Shown here one piece after another: positions 133 to 11,290 of a stretch of 35,664 nt of DNA. The notes beneath the pieces were generated by a model. That model saw only the letters and a list, made by a program, of their open reading frames with translations. It was not told where the DNA came from and made no database searches. Position numbers and translations under genes: made by a program. The first letter of the stretch is position 1; each line of letters starts with the position of its first letter. Source of the stretch: Clostridiales bacterium (GTDB lineage: Bacteria; Bacillota; Clostridia; Oscillospirales; Acutalibacteraceae); assembly GCA_012522615.1 (NCBI GenBank), contig JAAYKB010000003.1:1-35664 (forward strand). The letters run 5' to 3'.

Positions 133-185
133 ATTATTGCCGAAACACTTTTATTTTTTATATTGACAAAATTCATCAAATAATA

Positions 186-214
186 TTGACAACGCGGCTC
201 TTGGATAGTATACT
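186..214 (+). promoter_or_regulatory. Strong sigma-A promoter of the RNA leader and polyamine operon
   Basis: TTGACA (186-191) and TATACT (209-214) are spaced by 17 nt. Transcription should begin near 221, about 450 nt before the speD start codon, so it makes a long leader or a separate RNA. Confidence 0.8.
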
Positions 215-220
215 CCTAAC

Positions 221-645
221 TGATGCCCCAAGAGGAGCAGAGTTTTGGATTGTGTATGCGGCTTTTGCGTATGCAATCAGGCTGTTTTAAAATTTTGGAT
301 TAAAACAGCAGCAAGAAATTGACCATTCCTTTTTAAGGATTTAAGGCCATACGGACAGCCGGGTCAACTGCCGATCGCAGCTTTAAGGCTGCATTATTGA
401 TTGAGTTAAACTCAAATTTTATAAGTTGGTTACTTCATAACCATGTGTATTCGGTACACAACACTTGTGAAACGGTCAATAAGAGTGGTAAAAGTAAGTT
501 CTTGCTATATAGACTCTGACAACTCTGCATTGTGGATAATAACGTGAGCCTTTGCTCATTACTAAATAAAACACGTTTTGTAGATTACGTACTCAAGTGA
601 TTTGTGGTTAGAATACCATTATATCACTTGGGTTTCCTTATTTTA
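221..645 (+). ncRNA. Large structured leader RNA or noncoding RNA upstream of speD, family not recognised
   Basis: About 420 nt between a strong promoter and speD hold no credible gene but many hairpins in series. These are 248-259 with 267-278 (12 bp including G-U pairs), 281-290 with 300-309 (10 bp perfect), 319-324 with 362-367 enclosing two smaller stems (327-339 and 344-360), 377-381 with 388-392, 401-405 with 411-415, 427-431 with 439-443, 445-449 with 455-459, and a last long stem 594-601 with 623-630 that contains an inner TGGT/ACCA pair. The last stem is followed by a weakly T-rich stretch just before the speD ribosome site. It could terminate a free RNA or act as an attenuator. I see no motif of SAM, tetrahydrofolate, guanidine or ykkC-type riboswitches, RNase P RNA, tmRNA or SRP RNA. 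Confidence 0.6.
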
Positions 646-670
646 ATCAGATATGAGAGGATACGGCGCC

Positions 671-1456
671 ATGGAAAATAAGCTGAAGCTTTATGGATTC
701 AACAACCTTACAAAATCATTGAGCTTTAATATTTACGATATTTGCTACGCAAAAAGCGAACGCGAGCAAAAGGATTATATAGCTTATATTGATGAGCAGT
801 ATAATTCGGAAAGACTTACTAATATTATGTTTAACCTGACTGAAATGATCGGGGCGCATGTCCTTAACATTTCAAAGCAGGATTATGAGCCGCAGGGTGC
901 GAGCGTTACCTTTTTGATTGCCGAGGAGAAGATGCTCGGGGCGATTGACGGTAAGCCGGAGATACTCAAGCCAGAAACGGTGGTTGCCCATCTTGATAAA
1001 AGCCATGTCACGGTACACACATATCCCGAATTTCATCCCGATACCAGTATCGCGACCTTTCGCGTGGATATTGACGTTGCGACATGTGGCGAGATTACGC
1101 CTTTGAGCACCCTGGATTATTTGATCGGCAGCTTTGATTCGGATATAATTACAATGGATTACCGCGTCAGGGGCTTTACCCGCGATGTGGAGGGTAAAAA
1201 GCTGTTTATGGACCACCCCATGACCTCGATTCAGGAATATATAGACAGCTCAATCCTGAGTAAATATGACGCTATTGATATTAATGTGTATCAGAGCAAC
1301 CTGTTTCACACAAAGATGATGATTAAGGAAGTCGATTTGAAGAACTACCTGTTCAACACCGATGTATATGAGTTGCCGCCCAAGACAAGGCTGCAGATTA
1401 CAAACAGCCTGAGGCAGGAAATGATTGAGATTTTCAGCGGTGCTAATGTATATTGA
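671..1456 (+). CDS. speD: S-adenosylmethionine decarboxylase proenzyme
   Basis: This enzyme makes decarboxylated S-adenosylmethionine, the aminopropyl donor for spermidine synthase. The 261-residue protein matches the long E. coli-type class in length (about 264) and in its opening KLKLYGFNNLTKSLSFNIYD. The self-cleavage site that yields the pyruvoyl cofactor is visible as LDKSHVTVHTYPE, with Ser111 as the pyruvoyl precursor. I chose ATG 671 over the track's 653 because a GAGAGGA ribosome site lies 9 nt upstream and the family starts here. It is the first gene of a polyamine operon, behind a long structured leader that may control it. speA begins 33 nt downstream. Confidence 0.95.
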   Translation: MENKLKLYGFNNLTKSLSFNIYDICYAKSEREQKDYIAYIDEQYNSERLTNIMFNLTEMIGAHVLNISKQDYEPQGASVTFLIAEEKMLGAIDGKPEILKPETVVAHLDKSHVTVHTYPEFHPDTSIATFRVDIDVATCGEITPLSTLDYLIGSFDSDIITMDYRVRGFTRDVEGKKLFMDHPMTSIQEYIDSSILSKYDAIDINVYQSNLFHTKMMIKEVDLKNYLFNTDVYELPPKTRLQITNSLRQEMIEIFSGANVY

Positions 1457-1489: not shown

Positions 1490-2938
1490 ATGGGTGAGTT
1501 ATCACAAAACCGCGCCCCGATAGCCGAGGCGCTGGAACAATTCAGAAGAATGAGGGTCGTTCCGTTTGACGTTCCGGGTCACAAGCGGGGCAGGGGGAAC
1601 CGCGAGCTTACCGAGTTTCTGGGCGAGCGCTGCATGTCGCTCGACGTGAATTCCATGAAGCCGCTCGATAATCTCACCCATCCCACCACGGTTATACGGG
1701 AGGCCGAGGAGTTGGCAGCGGAGGCGTTCGGCGCAGGATATGCCTTCTTTATGGTCGCCGGAACCACCTCGTGCGTACAGACCATGATTCTGGCCACCTG
1801 TCAAAAGGGCGATAAGATAATACTGCCCCGAAACGTGCATCGAAGCGCCATCAACGCCTTGATACTGTGCGGGGCGGTTCCTATATATGTCAATCCCGCA
1901 ATGAACCATGAGCTTGGAATTTCCCTGGGCATGTCGATTGAGAATGTGGAGCGCGCAATCACGGAAAATCCGGACGCAAAAGCCATATTTGTGAACAATC
2001 CGACTTATTACGGGATTTGCTCCAACCTGAAAGCCATTACCGAGCTTGCGCACAGGTATGGCATGAAGGTGTTGGTCGACGAGGCACACGGAACGCATTT
2101 TTATTTTGGTAATCAGCTACCGATAAGCGCAATGGCGGCGGGGGCGGATATGGCTTCGGTAAGCATGCACAAATCGGGCGGCTCGCTGACGCAAAGCTCG
2201 TTTTTGCTTACCGGAAAGAATATAAACAAGGACGCGGTGCGTCAGATTATCAACCTCACCCAGACGACAAGCGGTTCGTATCTTCTCCTTGCAAGCCTTG
2301 ACCTGTCGAGAAAAAGGCTGGCTCTGGACGGCGAGCGGATTTTTGACAAGGTGAACGAGATGGCGCAGTATGCCCGCAACGAGATAAACGATATCGGCCG
2401 ATACTATGCCTACAGCAGGGAGCTTATTAACAACGACACCATCTTTGATTATGACAAGACAAAGCTGTCGATAAACACGCTTAATATCGGGCTTGCCGGT
2501 ATTGAAGTATATGATATCCTGCGCGACGAATATGATATTCAGATTGAATTCGGCGATATCGGCAACATACTTGCATATATCTCCGTGGGTGACAGCTACA
2601 AGGACATCGAGCGGCTGGTGGGAGCTCTTTCAGAGATTGCGCGCCGTTACGGCAGGGACAAGGCCGGAATGATGCGGCATGAATATATCAGTCCGCGCGT
2701 CGCGGTAACCCCGCAGAAGGCTTTTTACGCCGACAAGCAGCCCCTGCCGATTGCCGAGAGCAGCGGCAGGATAAGCGGGGAGTTCGTGATGAGCTATCCG
2801 CCCGGAATCCCGATTCTTGCACCCGGTGAGGAAATCACGCCCGAGATTATCGAATATATTAATTATGCGAAGGAAAAGGGGTGCTTTTTGACTGGCACCC
2901 AAGACCTGAAGGTGGAAACAATCAGGGTTTTGAAGTGA
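1490..2938 (+). CDS. speA: Biosynthetic arginine decarboxylase, fold-type I PLP enzyme
   Basis: This is an Orn/Lys/Arg decarboxylase of the Bacillus SpeA/YaaO type (482 residues), which uses pyridoxal phosphate and is expected to convert arginine to agmatine. The cofactor lysine is in SMHKSGGSLTQSS (Lys228). The aspartate that holds the pyridine nitrogen is in VLVDEAHGTH (Asp197). The C-terminal part carries the family motif MSYPPGIPILAPGEE. Substrate choice among arginine, lysine and ornithine cannot be read from these motifs. The agmatinase gene two positions downstream strongly favours arginine. A GAAAGGGA ribosome site precedes ATG 1490. Confidence 0.9.
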   Translation: MGELSQNRAPIAEALEQFRRMRVVPFDVPGHKRGRGNRELTEFLGERCMSLDVNSMKPLDNLTHPTTVIREAEELAAEAFGAGYAFFMVAGTTSCVQTMILATCQKGDKIILPRNVHRSAINALILCGAVPIYVNPAMNHELGISLGMSIENVERAITENPDAKAIFVNNPTYYGICSNLKAITELAHRYGMKVLVDEAHGTHFYFGNQLPISAMAAGADMASVSMHKSGGSLTQSSFLLTGKNINKDAVRQIINLTQTTSGSYLLLASLDLSRKRLALDGERIFDKVNEMAQYARNEINDIGRYYAYSRELINNDTIFDYDKTKLSINTLNIGLAGIEVYDILRDEYDIQIEFGDIGNILAYISVGDSYKDIERLVGALSEIARRYGRDKAGMMRHEYISPRVAVTPQKAFYADKQPLPIAESSGRISGEFVMSYPPGIPILAPGEEITPEIIEYINYAKEKGCFLTGTQDLKVETIRVLK

Positions 2939-2978
2939 CCCATAAGACGGCTGCCCGCTTGGGAAAGGAGTGAATCTC

Positions 2979-3839
2979 TTGGAATTATGGTATTCGGAAA
3001 GGCATACGCCGAACGTAAAGCTGTCCATCAAGGTTGATCGTCAGATTTTCAGCGGAAAAAGCGATTTTCAGTCCATAGAAGTAATGGAATCGCCCGAGTT
3101 CGGACGTTTTCTGACCATTGACGGATATATGATGCTGACCGAAAAGGATGAATTCATCTACCATGAGATGATTGTACATCCGGCCATGGCGGTCCACCCG
3201 GAGGCAAAGAGAATTTTGGTGATTGGGGCGGGCGACGGCGGTGTTGTCCGCGAGCTTGTCAACTATCCGTTTGTCGAGCATATCGATCTGGTGGACATTG
3301 ACGAGATGGTGATTGAGGTATGCAAGAAATACCTTCCCCAGACGGCCTGCTGTCTTGATGACGAAAGGGTCAGCATCCATATCCAGGACGGTTTGAAATT
3401 CATCCGCAGATGCAAGGACGAATATGACGTCATTATTGTGGATTCTACAGACCCGTTCGGGCCCGGCGAGGGCTTGTTTACAAAGGAATTCTACGGAAAC
3501 TGCTTTAAAGCGCTCAAAGAAGACGGCATAATGGTCAACCAGCACGAAAGCCCCTTTTATCCCGAGGACGCTATTGCCATGCAGAGGGCGCACAAGCGGA
3601 TTGTGGAATCCTTTCCGATAAGCAGGGTTTATCAGGCGCATATACCGACCTACCCGTCGGGGCACTGGCTTTTCGGCTTTGCGTCGAAGAAGTATCATCC
3701 GATATTCGATTTCGACGCCGGACGCTGGCGCGGCTTGGGTATAAAGACGCGGTATTACAATACCCAGCTACATGTCGGAAGCTTTGCCCTGCCGAATTAT
3801 GTTGAAGAGCTGCTGGAGGATGTGGAAGAGGTTGAATGA
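2979..3839 (+). CDS. speE: Spermidine synthase (aminopropyltransferase)
   Basis: This enzyme transfers the aminopropyl group from decarboxylated AdoMet to putrescine. The 286-residue protein starts with the usual MELWYSERHTPNVKLSI. It carries the nucleotide-binding GAGDGGVVREL, the acidic VDIDEMVIEVC and the catalytic IVDSTDPFGPGEGLF. I place the start at TTG 2979, which lies 8 nt after a GGAAAGGAG ribosome site. The track's GTG 2970 overlaps that site and is unlikely. Its end overlaps the start of speB, so the two are probably translationally coupled. SpeD is made from the same operon and supplies its donor substrate. Confidence 0.93.
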   Translation: MELWYSERHTPNVKLSIKVDRQIFSGKSDFQSIEVMESPEFGRFLTIDGYMMLTEKDEFIYHEMIVHPAMAVHPEAKRILVIGAGDGGVVRELVNYPFVEHIDLVDIDEMVIEVCKKYLPQTACCLDDERVSIHIQDGLKFIRRCKDEYDVIIVDSTDPFGPGEGLFTKEFYGNCFKALKEDGIMVNQHESPFYPEDAIAMQRAHKRIVESFPISRVYQAHIPTYPSGHWLFGFASKKYHPIFDFDAGRWRGLGIKTRYYNTQLHVGSFALPNYVEELLEDVEEVE

Positions 3840-4695
3840 TTTAAGAAGAAATGCAGAAACTTTTATCGGATGCGAAGCCGGGTACGCCGAAGCGGATATC
3901 GTCATTTTCGGCGCGCCTTTTGATTCTACCACCTCATACCGCCCCGGTACGCGGTTTGCTACAAAGGCAATCCGCGGCGAATCATTTGGTATTGAAACCT
4001 ACAGTCCGTATCAGGACGCGGATTTGTCGGACGCAAGGATATTTGACGCGGGTGATCTGGAGCTGAGCTTCGGCGACCCGAAGCCGGTTTTGGAGGCCAT
4101 TGAAAGGTTTGCTGCGGGGATACTCGACGACGGAAAGCTTCCGGTTATGATTGGCGGGGAGCATCTTGTGACGTTGGGGGCGGTTGCTGCCGCCGCAAAG
4201 AGGCTAGATAATCTTCACATCCTGCATTTTGACGCCCATGCCGACCTGAGGGATGATTATCTCGGCACAAGGCTTTCACATGCGGCAGTCATGCGTCGCG
4301 TATGGGAGCTTGTGGGCGATAACCGTATATTTCAGTTCGGTATACGCTCGGGGGACAAAACCGAGTTTATCTGGGCAAAAGACCATGTGAGGATGAACAG
4401 GTTCAACTTCAACGGTCTTGAGGACACGGTAAAAGCCCTTGAGGGCAAGCCGGTCTATCTGACGATTGACCTTGATGTGCTTGACCCGTCGGAGTTTCCC
4501 GGTACGGGTACTCCCGAGGCGGGCGGCGTTGGCTTTAGCCAGCTGCTGGACGCTGTTATGAAGGCCGGCAGTCTTAATATTGTCGGCTGCGATATAAACG
4601 AGCTATGTCCTGTATATGACCAGAGCGGGGCGTCAACCGCTCTGGCGTGCAAGCTGCTGCGGGAGTTGCTTTTGGTGTTGGGCATAAAGCGCTAA
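3832..4695 (+). CDS. speB: Agmatinase (ureohydrolase)
   Basis: This enzyme hydrolyses agmatine to putrescine and urea, completing the arginine decarboxylase route. It is a di-manganese ureohydrolase of about 287 residues. The metal-binding motifs are all present: GGEHLVT, HFDAHADLRDDY, and LTIDLDVLDPSEFPGTGTPEAGG near the C terminus. SYRPGTRFATKAIR near the N terminus is also typical of bacterial agmatinases such as Bacillus SpeB. The start is uncertain. TTG 3832 fits a GGAGGA site 11 nt upstream, while ATG 3820 has that site too close. Either way it overlaps the end of speE. The track's 3772 start lies deep inside speE and is unlikely. Confidence 0.9.
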   Translation: MNDLRRNAETFIGCEAGYAEADIVIFGAPFDSTTSYRPGTRFATKAIRGESFGIETYSPYQDADLSDARIFDAGDLELSFGDPKPVLEAIERFAAGILDDGKLPVMIGGEHLVTLGAVAAAAKRLDNLHILHFDAHADLRDDYLGTRLSHAAVMRRVWELVGDNRIFQFGIRSGDKTEFIWAKDHVRMNRFNFNGLEDTVKALEGKPVYLTIDLDVLDPSEFPGTGTPEAGGVGFSQLLDAVMKAGSLNIVGCDINELCPVYDQSGASTALACKLLRELLLVLGIKR

Positions 4696-4731
4696 CCGCG
4701 CCCGCAAAAATATGTTTTGGAGGTTTATATC

Positions 4732-5931
4732 ATGGGAAAAGCTTTGATAATCGGATGCGGCGGGGTTGCGAGCGTTGCAATTCATAAATGCTGCCAGAAC
4801 AGCGAGGTTTTTGAGGAAATAATGATTGCGAGCCGCACAAAAAGCAAGTGCGACGCATTGAAAGAAAAGCTGGACGGTGGCAAGACAAAAATCTATACCG
4901 CGCGGGTTGACGCCGATAATGTGGACGAGCTTATCGCTCTTATAGACGGCTTTAAGCCGGACGTGGTGCTGAACCTTGCCCTGCCTTATCAGGATTTAAC
5001 CATTATGGACGCCTGCCTTGCGACAGGGACGAATTATCTTGACACTGCGAATTACGAGCCGCCCGACACCGCAAAATTCGAATATAAATGGCAGTGGGCG
5101 TATCGCGACAGGTTCAAGAAGGCGGGTATAACCGCGCTCCTGGGGAGCGGGTTTGATCCGGGGGTGACCGGTGTGTTTTCCGCCTATGCCCAGAAGCACC
5201 TGTTTGATGAAATCCATGAAATTGATATTCTCGACGCAAATGCCGGAGATCACGGTTATCCTTTCGCTACAAACTTTAATCCGGAGATAAATATACGCGA
5301 GGTTACTGCCAAGGGAAGCTACTGGGAGAACGGAAAATGGATCGAAACCGAGCCGATGGAGATAAAGCGGGTTTATAATTTCCCCGAAATCGGCGAAAAG
5401 GATATCTACCTTTTGCATCACGAGGAGTTGGAGTCGCTTGCACTCAACATCAAGGGAGTCAGGCGAATACGCTTCTTTATGACTTTTGGACAGAGTTATC
5501 TGACCCATCTTAAATGCCTTGAAAATGTCGGTATGACCTCGATTGAACCGATTATGTTTGAGGGCAGACCCGTTGTGCCGCTGCAGTTCCTCAAGGCGGT
5601 GCTTCCCGACCCGGCGACCCTCGGACCCCGTACGCGCGGCAAGACAAACATCGGATGTATTTTCAAGGGGATTAAAGACGGCAAGCCCCGCACGCATTAT
5701 ATCTATAACGTGTGCGACCATCAGGAATGTTATCGCGAGGTAGGCTCGCAGGCTATTTCCTATACGACCGGAGTTCCCGCAATGATCGGGGCGATGATGC
5801 TGATGACAAAAACATGGGACAAGCCGGGGGTATATAATATAGAAGAGTTTGATCCCGATCCCTTTATGGACGCCCTCAATAAATGGGGGCTTCCGTGGCA
5901 GCAGATTGAGAATCCGGAGCTTGTGGACTGA
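4732..5931 (+). CDS. Carboxynorspermidine synthase (saccharopine dehydrogenase-like)
   Basis: This enzyme reductively condenses aspartate semialdehyde with a diamine (putrescine, or diaminopropane in Vibrio) to give carboxyspermidine or carboxynorspermidine, using NADPH. The 399-residue protein begins with a Rossmann loop, KALIIGCGGVASVAIHKC, followed by IASRTKSKCDAL, both characteristic of this family within the saccharopine dehydrogenase-like group. A GGAGG ribosome site lies 9 nt before ATG 4732, so the track's 4717 start is too early. Its partner decarboxylase, nspC, follows. Finding it beside speD and speE is unusual because this is the alternative route to spermidine. Ordinary lysine-pathway saccharopine dehydrogenase is less likely given the neighbours. 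Confidence 0.85.
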   Translation: MGKALIIGCGGVASVAIHKCCQNSEVFEEIMIASRTKSKCDALKEKLDGGKTKIYTARVDADNVDELIALIDGFKPDVVLNLALPYQDLTIMDACLATGTNYLDTANYEPPDTAKFEYKWQWAYRDRFKKAGITALLGSGFDPGVTGVFSAYAQKHLFDEIHEIDILDANAGDHGYPFATNFNPEINIREVTAKGSYWENGKWIETEPMEIKRVYNFPEIGEKDIYLLHHEELESLALNIKGVRRIRFFMTFGQSYLTHLKCLENVGMTSIEPIMFEGRPVVPLQFLKAVLPDPATLGPRTRGKTNIGCIFKGIKDGKPRTHYIYNVCDHQECYREVGSQAISYTTGVPAMIGAMMLMTKTWDKPGVYNIEEFDPDPFMDALNKWGLPWQQIENPELVD

Positions 5932-5956
5932 TTATACTGAAGATTAACGGAGCAAA

Positions 5957-6014
5957 GGACTCCCTCGTTTTGCTGCCGACCCGTAAAAAGGGGCCGGTAT
6001 GCCGGAGGGAGTCT
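5957..6014 (+). other. Intercistronic hairpin between carboxynorspermidine synthase and nspC
   Basis: GACTCCCTC (5958-5966) pairs perfectly with GAGGGAGTC (6005-6013) and encloses a second GC-rich pairing around a GTAAAAA loop. It sits in the only sizeable gap of the operon (about 140 nt). It is followed by TTACTTAATATTTT, which is too weak for a standard terminator. It may lower expression of the last two genes or protect an mRNA end. Confidence 0.5.
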
Positions 6015-6072
6015 TACTTAATATTTTGAAGGCACGAAGTTTGCGGACTGCCCGAAAGGAATGGCCATAACC

Positions 6073-7209
6073 ATGGAGATTAATTTTGATATATATAAGC
6101 TTGAAACGCCGTATATAATCGTGGATGAGGCAAGGCTTATCCGCAATCTTGAAATACTCAAGGGCGTGATTGACCGTACCGGATGCAAAATCCTGCTGGC
6201 CCAAAAGGCCTTTTCGATGTTTTCGCTCTATCCGAAAATCCGTCAGTATCTGCACGGGACGACGGCGAGCGGGCTTTATGAGGCAAAGCTGGGATTTGAG
6301 GAAATGGGGGGCGAAACGCACATATACTCGCCCGCATTTGACGAAAGGGAATTCACCGAAATTGCGGTCATATGCAATCATATTGTGTTCAACTCGTTTG
6401 CGCAATGGGAGAAATTCGGGAAGATTGCCTTGGATGCGGGGTGCCGCTGCGGAATACGTATAAATCCTGAATATTCCACACAGCAGCATGAGATATATGA
6501 CCCATGTGCTCCCGCCTCCCGTCTCGGGGTTCCGATAAGCGGGTTCGGCGGGGAACTGCCGGACGGGATAAGCGGTCTGCATTTTCATACCCTGTGCGAG
6601 CAGAACGCGGACGCTCTTATTAAGACCCTTGCCGCTGTCGAAGAGAAATTTGGCAGATATCTTCCAGGGCTTCAATGGCTCAACTTCGGAGGGGGGCATC
6701 ATATTACACGGGAGGATTATGATGTCGAGGCGCTGGTCGCGGAGATAAACAGGGTTCAGGAGAAATATGATCTGACCGTATATCTCGAGCCGGGGGAGGC
6801 GGTTGTGCTGAATGCGGGTTATCTAGTGGCTTCGGTACGGGAGATCATCGATTACGGCACGCCGATTGCCATACTCGACACGTCTGCTGCCTGCCATATG
6901 CCGGATGTTCTTGAAATGCCGTACCGCCCGCCGCTTCTTGACAGCGGGATGCCGGGCGAAAAGGAATACACCTATAAGCTCGGCGGAACTACCTGTCTGG
7001 CGGGCGATATAATCGGTGCCTATTCCTTTGATAAGCCGCTTTCCGAGGGTGACAGGCTGGTGTTCGGGGATATGGCGCACTATACCATGGTGAAAACCAA
7101 TACGTTTAACGGCATGAAGCTGCCGTCGATTGCTATTGCCGGAGCGGACGGCGAGATAAGGCTTGTTAAATCGTTCGGATATGAGAATTTTAAAGCAAGG
7201 CTGTCATAA
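6073..7209 (+). CDS. nspC: Carboxynorspermidine/carboxyspermidine decarboxylase
   Basis: This PLP enzyme of the alanine-racemase-like fold removes the carboxyl group from carboxyspermidine or carboxynorspermidine, the product of the preceding gene. The 378-residue protein opens with the family pattern LETPYIIVDEARLIRNLEIL. The PLP lysine is in LLAQKAFSMF (Lys45). Later motifs are GLHFHTLCEQ, LNFGGGHHIT, and YLEPGEAVV, which binds the PLP phosphate and substrate. The start is ambiguous. GAAAGGA abuts ATG 6061 directly, so the in-frame ATG 6073, which matches the family start, is more plausible even though its spacing is a long 12 nt. The CoADR gene starts 24 nt after its stop. Confidence 0.9.
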   Translation: MEINFDIYKLETPYIIVDEARLIRNLEILKGVIDRTGCKILLAQKAFSMFSLYPKIRQYLHGTTASGLYEAKLGFEEMGGETHIYSPAFDEREFTEIAVICNHIVFNSFAQWEKFGKIALDAGCRCGIRINPEYSTQQHEIYDPCAPASRLGVPISGFGGELPDGISGLHFHTLCEQNADALIKTLAAVEEKFGRYLPGLQWLNFGGGHHITREDYDVEALVAEINRVQEKYDLTVYLEPGEAVVLNAGYLVASVREIIDYGTPIAILDTSAACHMPDVLEMPYRPPLLDSGMPGEKEYTYKLGGTTCLAGDIIGAYSFDKPLSEGDRLVFGDMAHYTMVKTNTFNGMKLPSIAIAGADGEIRLVKSFGYENFKARLS

Positions 7210-7233: not shown

Positions 7234-8964
7234 ATGAAGGTACTGGTTGTCGGCGGCGTCGCGGGAGGGGCGTCGGCGGCCGCACGCCTGAGAAGGCTTG
7301 ATGAAGCCGCCGAGATTGTGATGTTTGAGCGGGGGGAGTACATTTCGTTTGCAAACTGCGGTCTTCCGTACTATATCGGCGGGGAGATTGCCGATAAAGA
7401 GGACCTGACCCTGCAAACCCCCGAAAGCTTTAGCACCCGCTTTAATGTGGATGTCCGAATAATGAGCGAGGTCATATCGATTGACCGCGCGGCAAAGACG
7501 GTCACGGTCAGAAAGACCGATACCGGAGAAATATACAAGGAAGGTTATGACCGTCTGATTCTTTCGATGGGGGCATACCCTATCCTGCCCGGTATTGAGG
7601 GGGTGGGGTCGGATAAGGTGTTTACCCTCCGTAGTATCCCCAACGCCGTGAGAATCAAGAGCTATATTGACTCCTTGCAGTCGGCAGGCGGCGCGGAATC
7701 AGGGCATAAGAAATACAGTGCGGTTGTTGTCGGAGGTGGATATATCGGGGTCGAGATGTCCGAAAATCTGCATAAAGCCGGACTTTCGGTAACAATAGTC
7801 GAGATGGCGAACCAGGTGATTGCCCCGATTGACTACGATATGGCGTGTGAGGTGCACCGCCATATCGAGAGCAAGGGCGTCCGCCTTATGCTGGGCAATG
7901 CCATGCGGGCTATCAGCGATGACGGCGGCAATCTCCGTGTAAAGCTTGACAGCGGGGAGATTGAGGCGGATATGCTGATTATGGCGGTGGGGGTTTTGCC
8001 CGAAACCGCCATTGCGAGGGAGGCCGGTCTGGAGGTCAATTCCCGCGGCTCAATTGTGGTCAATTCAAAGATGCAGACCTCGGATCCGTCTATCTACGCC
8101 GTGGGGGACGCGGTTGAGGTGGTGGACTTTGTCACCGGGCAAAAAACCTTTGTCCCTCTTGCCGGCCCGGCAAACAAGCAGGGGAGGATTGCTGCCGACA
8201 ACATTTGCAATATCGAAAGCGAGTATACGGGCACCCAGGGCAGTGCTATACTGAAGGTGTTCGACCTCACCGTCGCCGCGACCGGAATAAACGAAAAAAC
8301 CGCTAAAAGGCTCGGGCTTGATTATGACAAATCCTTTACATACTCGCCCTCCCACGCCGGCTATTACCCCGGCGCCTCAAATATGACCATCAAGGTGTTG
8401 TTTGAAAGGCAGAGCGGCAAAATCCTGGGCGCCCAGATTGTGGGTTATGACGGGGTTGACAAGCGCTGCGACGTCATCGCGACCGCCATCAGGTTTGGGG
8501 CGACCGCATATGATTTGACAAGGCTGGAATTGTGCTATGCCCCGCCTTATTCCAGCGCAAAAGACCCGGTAAACATGGCGGGCTATGTTATCGAAAACCT
8601 GCTTGCCGGCAGAGTGCAGAATTTCCACTGGCACGATGTCGCCGGGCTGCCCCGCGACGGCAGCGTAACCCTGATTGATACCCGCAGCAGGAGTGAATAT
8701 AAAAAAGAGCATATTGACGGGTTTGTCAATATGCCTCTGGACGAGCTGCGCGGACGGATTGGTGAGCTTGATAAATCCAAGCCGGTTTATGTGACATGTC
8801 AGGTTGGCTTGCGCGGTTATATAGCCTGCCGGATTCTTTCCCAGAACGGCTTTGAGTGCTATAACCTAAGCGGGGGATACAGCCTGTATCGGTCAATTTT
8901 CGGCGAAAGCACCGCTTTGGATGAATCGGATGTGAATCCCGAAACACAGCTGCCTGAAAAATAA
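7234..8964 (+). CDS. CoA-disulfide reductase/NADH-dependent flavoprotein fused to rhodanese domain
   Basis: This is a FAD- and NAD(P)H-dependent pyridine nucleotide-disulfide oxidoreductase of the CoADR-rhodanese type (576 residues). The N-terminal dinucleotide fold is VVGGVAGGASAAARLRRL. The single active cysteine is Cys42 in FANCGLPYYIGG. A second nucleotide-binding loop is VVVGGGYIGVEM, and FAD contact is in YAVGDAVEV. The C-terminal rhodanese domain (about 475-560) has its catalytic loop at VTCQVGLRGY (Cys522). Relatives reduce CoA disulfide, persulfide or polysulfide. The exact substrate cannot be told. It shares the polyamine operon by position, 24 nt after nspC, and ends just before a terminator. 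The functional link to polyamines is not obvious, though thiol redox balance is possible. Confidence 0.88.
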   Translation: MKVLVVGGVAGGASAAARLRRLDEAAEIVMFERGEYISFANCGLPYYIGGEIADKEDLTLQTPESFSTRFNVDVRIMSEVISIDRAAKTVTVRKTDTGEIYKEGYDRLILSMGAYPILPGIEGVGSDKVFTLRSIPNAVRIKSYIDSLQSAGGAESGHKKYSAVVVGGGYIGVEMSENLHKAGLSVTIVEMANQVIAPIDYDMACEVHRHIESKGVRLMLGNAMRAISDDGGNLRVKLDSGEIEADMLIMAVGVLPETAIAREAGLEVNSRGSIVVNSKMQTSDPSIYAVGDAVEVVDFVTGQKTFVPLAGPANKQGRIAADNICNIESEYTGTQGSAILKVFDLTVAATGINEKTAKRLGLDYDKSFTYSPSHAGYYPGASNMTIKVLFERQSGKILGAQIVGYDGVDKRCDVIATAIRFGATAYDLTRLELCYAPPYSSAKDPVNMAGYVIENLLAGRVQNFHWHDVAGLPRDGSVTLIDTRSRSEYKKEHIDGFVNMPLDELRGRIGELDKSKPVYVTCQVGLRGYIACRILSQNGFECYNLSGGYSLYRSIFGESTALDESDVNPETQLPEK

Positions 8965-9652: not shown

Positions 9653-9675
9653 CTAACTGATTTCCAGAGTCATGA

Positions 9676-9828
9676 GTACAGGTGCCCGGAAACCGGGAGA
9701 ATAGGGAAGCGGGTGAAAATCCCGCGCGGTCCCGCCGCTGTAAAAAGCTGAAACGGTCTTCATAATGTCACTGGAGGAATCCGGGAAGACGAAAGACCGT
9801 AGCTTTGAGCCAGAAGACCTGCCTGTAC
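9676..9828 (+). ncRNA. Cobalamin (vitamin B12) riboswitch aptamer
   Basis: The class signature is clear: GGGAAGCGGGTGAAAATCCC, then GCGGTCCCGCCGCTGT, and the B12 box AGCCAGAAGACCTGCC near the 3' end. The closing stem pairs GTACAGG (9676-9682) with CCTGTAC (9822-9828). It should bind a cobalamin and lower expression of the two downstream genes when B12 is plentiful. Confidence 0.95.
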
Positions 9829-9927
9829 CGGAATGTCCCCCTCTACGGAAGATAGAGTCGGCGTGAGGACAACAGATGTGTGTTGCATATCGATTTTTGC
9901 ATAACATCTGCGGTAAAATGTCACCGT

Positions 9928-11203: not shown

Positions 11204-11290
11204 GCCGGTGTGATGGAATTGGCAGACGTGCTGGACTCAAAATCCAGTGGTGGCGACACCGTGCCGGTTCGACCCCGGCCACCGGCACCA
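11204..11290 (+). tRNA. tRNA-Leu (anticodon CAA)
   Basis: Acceptor arms GCCGGTG and CACCGGC pair fully. The anticodon loop CTCAAAA is held by CTGGA/TCCAG, giving anticodon CAA. A long variable arm (TGGTGGCGACACCG) is present as expected for leucine tRNA. The T loop GTTCGACCC is canonical and CCA is encoded at 11288-11290. Confidence 0.96.

Follow-up and report, generated by a model that had tools for sequence, protein, structure and literature searches.

The leader of a clostridial polyamine operon is probably a member of a widespread class of orphan riboswitches that act by transcription attenuation, most likely in response to spermidine

Introduction

The closest described system is the spermidine riboswitch of Salvail et al. 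(2023), a variant of the SAM-I aptamer in which the ligand induces premature termination of ldcC, speE, speB and speD transcription (PMC10853860). For that class, a SAM-I fold of four stems and 13 examples were described, and its authors stated that further polyamine riboswitch classes are surely still undiscovered (PMC10853860). A second point of reference is the Rfam family RF02440 (SpF59_sRNA, alias 'ldcC RNA'), which Rfam types as an sRNA gene and which by its name traces back to the pneumococcal transcript F59/SN20/srn235 (also Spd_sr49). In Streptococcus pneumoniae, SN20/srn235/F59 lies between SP0915 and SP0916 and is a discrete RNA of 314–327 nt (PMC2887815, PMC12323649); the call for F59 itself was 82 nt (PMC3395615), and a mutant of this ~320-nt RNA was scored for lung fitness (PMC4387999).

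Here we characterize a member of RF02440 in a 35,664-nt stretch of DNA from a Clostridiales bacterium (contig JAAYKB010000003.1), hereafter the window. We propose that it forms the leader of a speD-ldcC-speE-speB-dehydrogenase-nspC operon and is probably one of a widespread class of orphan riboswitches working by transcription attenuation, with spermidine as the most likely signal.

Results

The leader region holds a structured RNA with a single Rfam match

Downstream of the promoter, ~450 nt without a gene extend up to speD (Table 1), and this leader locus is present once in its genome. An earlier note on this DNA had placed here a hairpin-rich RNA of ~420 nt between a strong promoter and speD. 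Both the promoter, whose hexamers are kept in several congeneric speD leaders, and the RNA are borne out: positions 221–645 fold at −130.1 kcal/mol, with a z-score of −6.06 against dinucleotide shuffles, 0 of 100 of which were equally stable. The limits of the RNA had to be redrawn, as the conserved part comprises 306–518 only (213 nt); the portion before it, with a 14-bp hairpin at 248–278 and another at about 280–308, is lineage-specific. The 3′ stem that the note gave at 594–630 is indeed a hairpin before speD, here refined to a terminator-like structure with slightly wider limits. Its statement that none of the reading frames carries a ribosome site was nearly right, the one weak candidate being a TTG at 245 that opens 25 codons and is not conserved. 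For speD itself, the start is most likely ATG 671, behind AGAGG; a longer frame opens at 653, on the 5′ side of this site.

The earlier note had also proposed running Rfam covariance models, and had named a match to a known class as an outcome that would count against its reading. Such a match exists, to RF02440, at 68.8 bits against a gathering cut-off of 37.2, and the window RNA is a new member of this family; but the family is filed without a function, and its 54-nt model covers only the 5′ third of the conserved RNA. At E ≤ 5, nothing else matched over window positions 150–700, including T-box, cobalamin and SAM models, and neither ROOL, GOLLD, OLE nor raiA matched in the window. An FMN switch, guessed for SN20 by Kumar et al., likewise has no match in the window, and no tRNA-like element was found in the leader. 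The published spermidine riboswitch acts on the same genes (ldcC, speE, speB, speD) and is an OFF switch by termination (PMC10853860), as would be expected if the window RNA belonged to it. The lack of any SAM-family match in this search, together with the four-stem fold and the 13 examples described for that class, refutes the identity at the level of Rfam models and makes it extremely improbable.

Table 1. Features of the leader and the operon in the window
Feature	Position	Strand	Basis or remark
Sigma-70-type promoter, TTGACA-17-TATACT	186–214	+	11/12 consensus bases
Lineage-specific 5′ leader part, outside the conserved class	221–305	+	Differs or is missing in congeners
Conserved structured RNA (full R1 model)	306–518	+	205.8 bits, E 4e-56; covariation
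P1 5′ strand AGCAAGAA, closes the domain	310–317	+	Pairs with 499–506; own versus swapped partner energies
SpF59/ldcC domain, the sole part in Rfam	320–374	+	RF02440, 68.8 bits; covariation
P2; P2a; P2b	319–324/362–367; 325–329/337–341; 345–347/358–360	+	SpF59 domain helices
P4 hairpin	376–393	+	Both-sided changes in 6/6 pairs
P3, encloses P5–P8	395–400/476–481	+	85–100% of cells paired
P5; P6; P7; P8	401–406/410–415; 417–426/463–472; 428–432/438–442; 444–449/455–460	+	Inside P3; 85–100% of cells paired
Candidate antiterminator strand (P8 3′ strand and ACUUG of P6)	454–467	+	Complementary to terminator 5′ arm 594–604
Near-invariant 3′ module (P6 3′ strand, P3 3′ strand, P9)	461–518	+	R2, 81.4 bits
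P9, loop holding the P1 3′ strand UUCUUGCU (499–506)	482–486/513–517	+	Pseudoknot
Terminator-like hairpin (ACUCAAGUGAU...AUCACUUGGGU) and degenerate U tract TTTCCTTATTTT	591–632	+	−19.8 kcal/mol
Likely ribosome site of speD, AGAGGA region	655–660	+	Sequence
speD, S-adenosylmethionine decarboxylase, first operon gene	671–1456	+	TIGR03331, 416.9 bits (cut-off 255.8)
Orn/Lys/Arg decarboxylase	1490–2938	+	Decarboxylase class only
speE	2970–3839	+	NCBIfam score over cut-off
speB	3823–4695	+	NCBIfam score over cut-off
Carboxynorspermidine-synthase-like dehydrogenase	4732–5931	+	Below its cut-off
nspC	6061–7209	+	NCBIfam score over cut-off

Conservation extends well beyond the Rfam model

We found RF02440 in 16 of 60 relatives, in 18 of 398 genomes sampled across the phylum and in 88 of 394 genomes of the order. 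A string scan of named genomes added 118 loci, in Paenibacillus, Bacillus, Neobacillus, Kurthia, Acidaminococcus, Phascolarctobacterium, Faecalibacterium, Gemmiger, Flavonifractor, many uncultured Clostridia and one Synergistaceae assembly. In the aligned leaders, conservation runs past the Rfam model to the equivalent of window position 518, and this 3′ part is present at 169 of 178 loci, most of the others being cut by contig ends. A covariance model of 214 positions built from 41 diverse leaders (R1) matched 99 of the 100 sources searched and, applied to the 398 phylum genomes blind to genes, found 25 carriers, seven above the number for RF02440. The class is spread over dozens of families, many of them in Bacillota, and a Synergistaceae assembly. 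A plasmid search returned one Paenibacillus megaplasmid record with the dehydrogenase downstream; no phage record matched, and a viral contig in which the core string is present gave no full-model match among the sources searched. One further match (G046/L187, 24 bits) sits inside a long coding frame and was rejected as a false positive.

The Synergistaceae leader (L101) and one from a genome of the window's own phylum (L209) are near-alike divergent forms, both before speD, which share GAGC/GGCUC in P9 and UUAC instead of UUGC. This likeness across phyla suggests either horizontal transfer or a misassigned bin.

The earlier note had proposed looking for covariation in the regions upstream of speD, and this covariation is strong: on an alignment fitted to the structure under test, and with statistics uncorrected for phylogeny, 39 of 55 pairs show both-sided changes compared with 17.7 in shuffles, a figure reached by 0 of 500. 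Across the R1 alignment 94.5% of cells pair, whereas control partners slid by 1–3 columns pair in 27–43%. Compensatory changes are many in P5, P7 and P8. Because the alignment had been fitted to the structure, P1 was also assessed free of any alignment, and its strands pair better with their own partners than with swapped ones (−7.87 versus −5.40 kcal/mol; 42 of 49 variants, p = 4e-9, uncorrected for phylogeny). P9, which crosses P1, covaries as well, with compensatory changes at three of its five pairs (0 of 500 shuffles). A second local helix above P9 (487–491/502–506) displayed no compensatory change and did no better than shuffles, and P1 is preferred over it. Since P9 crosses P1 and this rival helix is unsupported, the 3′ end is best drawn as a hairpin with a large loop that pairs with the 5′ strand of P1. 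The SpF59 domain holds an invariant UGCCGA, and a short pseudoknot between 352–354 and 371–373 is possible, at positions that are invariant and hence carry no covariation information.

The 3′ module is the near-invariant core

Divergent carriers keep CUUGUGAAAcGGUCAAUAAGAGUAGUAAAAGUA..UUGCUAUAUAGACUCUG, but their SpF59 domain has changed or is lacking. A 57-nt model of the 3′ module alone (R2) recovered from the 398 phylum genomes exactly the same 25 carriers as R1, and a recognizable SpF59 domain is missing in seven of these 25 and in two congeners of the window. Eight leaders have the 3′ module without any Rfam match. In these sequences, the near-invariant heart of the class is the 57-nt module outside the Rfam model, and sensing cannot depend on the SpF59 domain everywhere, since some carriers lack it.

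The leaders of these two congeners (L185 and L186), before speD in the window's genus, have the SpF59 domain deleted and keep the 3′ module and the terminator hairpin; their U tract is degraded, as in the window, and they are possibly decayed or constitutive switches. By inspection, two minimal leaders before speD (L208, about 1630–1727, and L210, about 1600–1690) combine a promoter, an 11-bp P1 (GCAAATATTTT/AAAATATTTGC) and the 3′ module within ~95 nt.

The RNA consistently precedes polyamine genes

In the window, speD is followed on the same strand by the decarboxylase (ldcC), speE, speB, the dehydrogenase and nspC (1490–7209). At the 178 loci, the first recognized gene is speD in 59 cases, an ldcC-type decarboxylase (ldcC/speA) in 54 and a CASDH-type dehydrogenase in 29; the other 36 include 19 that visibly open with a PotA-like ATPase and nine cut by a contig end. 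One PotA-headed operon tested by NCBIfam is potABCD-like, with PotA over the cut-off. All 25 carriers from the gene-blind search of the phylum sample lie upstream of polyamine genes in the right orientation (speD 11, ldcC 7, dehydrogenase 7, nothing else), and the distance from the RNA to the first gene is 190–630 nt. We thus find a covarying conserved structure in the 5′ leaders of functionally related genes.

These contexts bear on the view, embodied in the Rfam label 'Streptococcus sRNA SpF59', that the RNA is an independent small RNA acting in trans and its neighbouring gene incidental. The discrete ~320-nt RNA of S. pneumoniae, with its mutant scored for lung fitness, fits that view (PMC4387999), but a terminated leader would look like an sRNA too, and the 25 of 25 correctly placed blind matches, together with a terminator directly before the gene and the modest 190–630 nt that separate RNA and gene, point to attenuation. 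We consider a trans-acting RNA very unlikely, and the same position and terminator tell against the earlier note's alternative, a large RNA that is independent. The genomic context of RF02440 members instead argues for a leader, and the RNA almost certainly acts in cis.

The carboxyspermidine route (dehydrogenase and nspC) and potABCD neither use AdoMet nor make MTA, and arginine and lysine play no part in potABCD; spermidine is the one product that links uptake by PotABCD with the SpeD/SpeE and carboxyspermidine routes. The same cis leader and terminator could in principle respond to arginine, lysine, agmatine, AdoMet, MTA or an ion, as the operons mix enzymes of arginine/lysine, AdoMet and polyamine metabolism and binding is invisible to sequence. 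Polyamines alone, however, are common to all contexts, and a non-polyamine ligand is unlikely: dehydrogenase-nspC operons and potABCD carry the same RNA, which tells against AdoMet and MTA, and potABCD tells against arginine and lysine. An AdoMet-responsive leader, one of two options in the earlier note, is disfavoured on this basis. Its other option, a polyamine-responsive leader, is supported by the covariation, the polyamine-only context and the terminator before the gene.

Three further features lie downstream in the window. On the same strand, 3′ of nspC, 7234–8964 (+) reads as a protein resembling FAD/NAD-disulfide oxidoreductases, with a rhodanese-like part at its C terminus; it is possibly co-transcribed with the polyamine operon. 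Rfam places a cobalamin riboswitch at 9663–9840 (+; 120.6 bits) and a tRNA gene at 11204–11287 (+; RF00005, 50 bits).

An intrinsic terminator lies between the RNA and the start codon in nearly all leaders

An expression platform in the form of an intrinsic terminator (a hairpin followed by a U tract) lies between the RNA and the start codon in 140 of 151 leaders; a first detector had called 141 of 151, compared with 16 of 151 shuffled regions. The window has the hairpin with a degenerate U tract, which may make the switch leaky, and the tract is better in some congeners (TTTTTTATT in L002).

When each leader was scanned with its own and with swapped terminator arms, a clear peak appeared at one place, the 3′ strand of P8/P6 (t = −7.9). 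The advantage of the own arm is modest and uncorrected for phylogeny, with 75 of 118 distinct arms (p = 6e-5), or 76 of 118 within gene class (p = 0.004). In the window, CACUUG (462–467) is complementary to CAAGUG (594–599). That the 5′ arm of the terminator can pair instead with the 3′ strand of P8/P6 is thereby partly shown. Minimum-energy folding of truncated leaders gave mixed antiterminator partners and was set aside in favour of the scan. Without ligand, the forced antiterminator fold of the window (−80.4 kcal/mol) is 9.5 kcal/mol less stable than aptamer plus terminator (−89.9 kcal/mol), so that switching would have to rely on kinetics or on a different antiterminator.

General effects of polyamines on translation are well known, and a long leader with a terminator might also be switched by an RNA-binding attenuator protein or by ribosomes on a leader peptide. 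Leader-peptide attenuation was set aside, as no conserved ORF was present among the 139 leaders examined and ORFs of at least eight codons linked to a Shine–Dalgarno sequence are rarer in them (26/139) than in shuffles (252/695). A near-invariant pseudoknotted core across many families is also more aptamer-like than a short protein site, and we regard switching by protein or ribosomes as decidedly improbable. That the cis leader is a transcription attenuator is very likely.

Discussion

In the mechanism that we propose, plentiful polyamine would bind the pseudoknot core of P1, P3 and P9; the bound core would keep P6 and P8 together and leave the terminator arm free, the terminator would form, and transcription would stop (an OFF switch). 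With polyamine scarce, the 3′ strand of P8/P6 would capture the terminator arm as an antiterminator, and the operon would be read. On the sequence evidence, we lean towards direct sensing of a polyamine by the RNA. We infer the ligand from gene context and pathway knowledge; spermidine is the likeliest because it alone is the product common to the three systems. The case for spermidine itself is evenly poised, with putrescine or another polyamine possible.

The RNA class is a strong candidate for a further polyamine riboswitch class. The annotated pneumococcal 'virulence sRNA' is, these data suggest, probably a terminated riboswitch leader, and by analogy ~320 nt would be the length expected of one. 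The natural minimal forms provide a compact construct on which ligands can be tested directly, and the model redefined on the 57-nt 3′ module recovers members that Rfam misses (25 versus 18 in the same 398 genomes). The alias 'ldcC RNA' shows that someone had noticed the gene link before; a literature search did not find the source of this alias. The full architecture, 3′ core, regulon and attenuation proposed here from sequence are not in Rfam, and no description was found in a search that left subscription papers and preprints aside, so that an earlier account is possible.

Among known systems, ROOL, GOLLD, OLE and raiA are likewise large structured bacterial RNAs, but the window RNA matches none of them and is a cis leader. 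Genes related to polyamines are also preceded by two other candidate RNA elements, the odc1 and potE motifs; the former is a short, pseudoknotted uORF element and the latter a weak candidate, and their descriptions set them apart by gene sets and architecture (PMC8632094). The pneumococcal RNA also has a leader position, in the SP0915/SP0916 gap. RF02440 comprises 54 nt with P2/P2a only and is typed as an sRNA gene, whereas our definition of the class runs to 214 positions and takes in a pseudoknot, a terminator and, beyond the reach of the Rfam model, a near-invariant 3′ module. The spermidine riboswitch of Salvail et al. works as we propose for the window RNA, but it has another secondary structure, no relation in Rfam and 13 examples, compared with dozens of families here. 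About as likely as not, the window RNA represents a second class of natural polyamine (spermidine) riboswitch, unrelated in structure and far more widespread, with the 3′ pseudoknot module as its true aptamer; the SpF59 domain would then be a mere accessory, lost in some lineages to the point of the ~95-nt minimal forms of L208 and L210.
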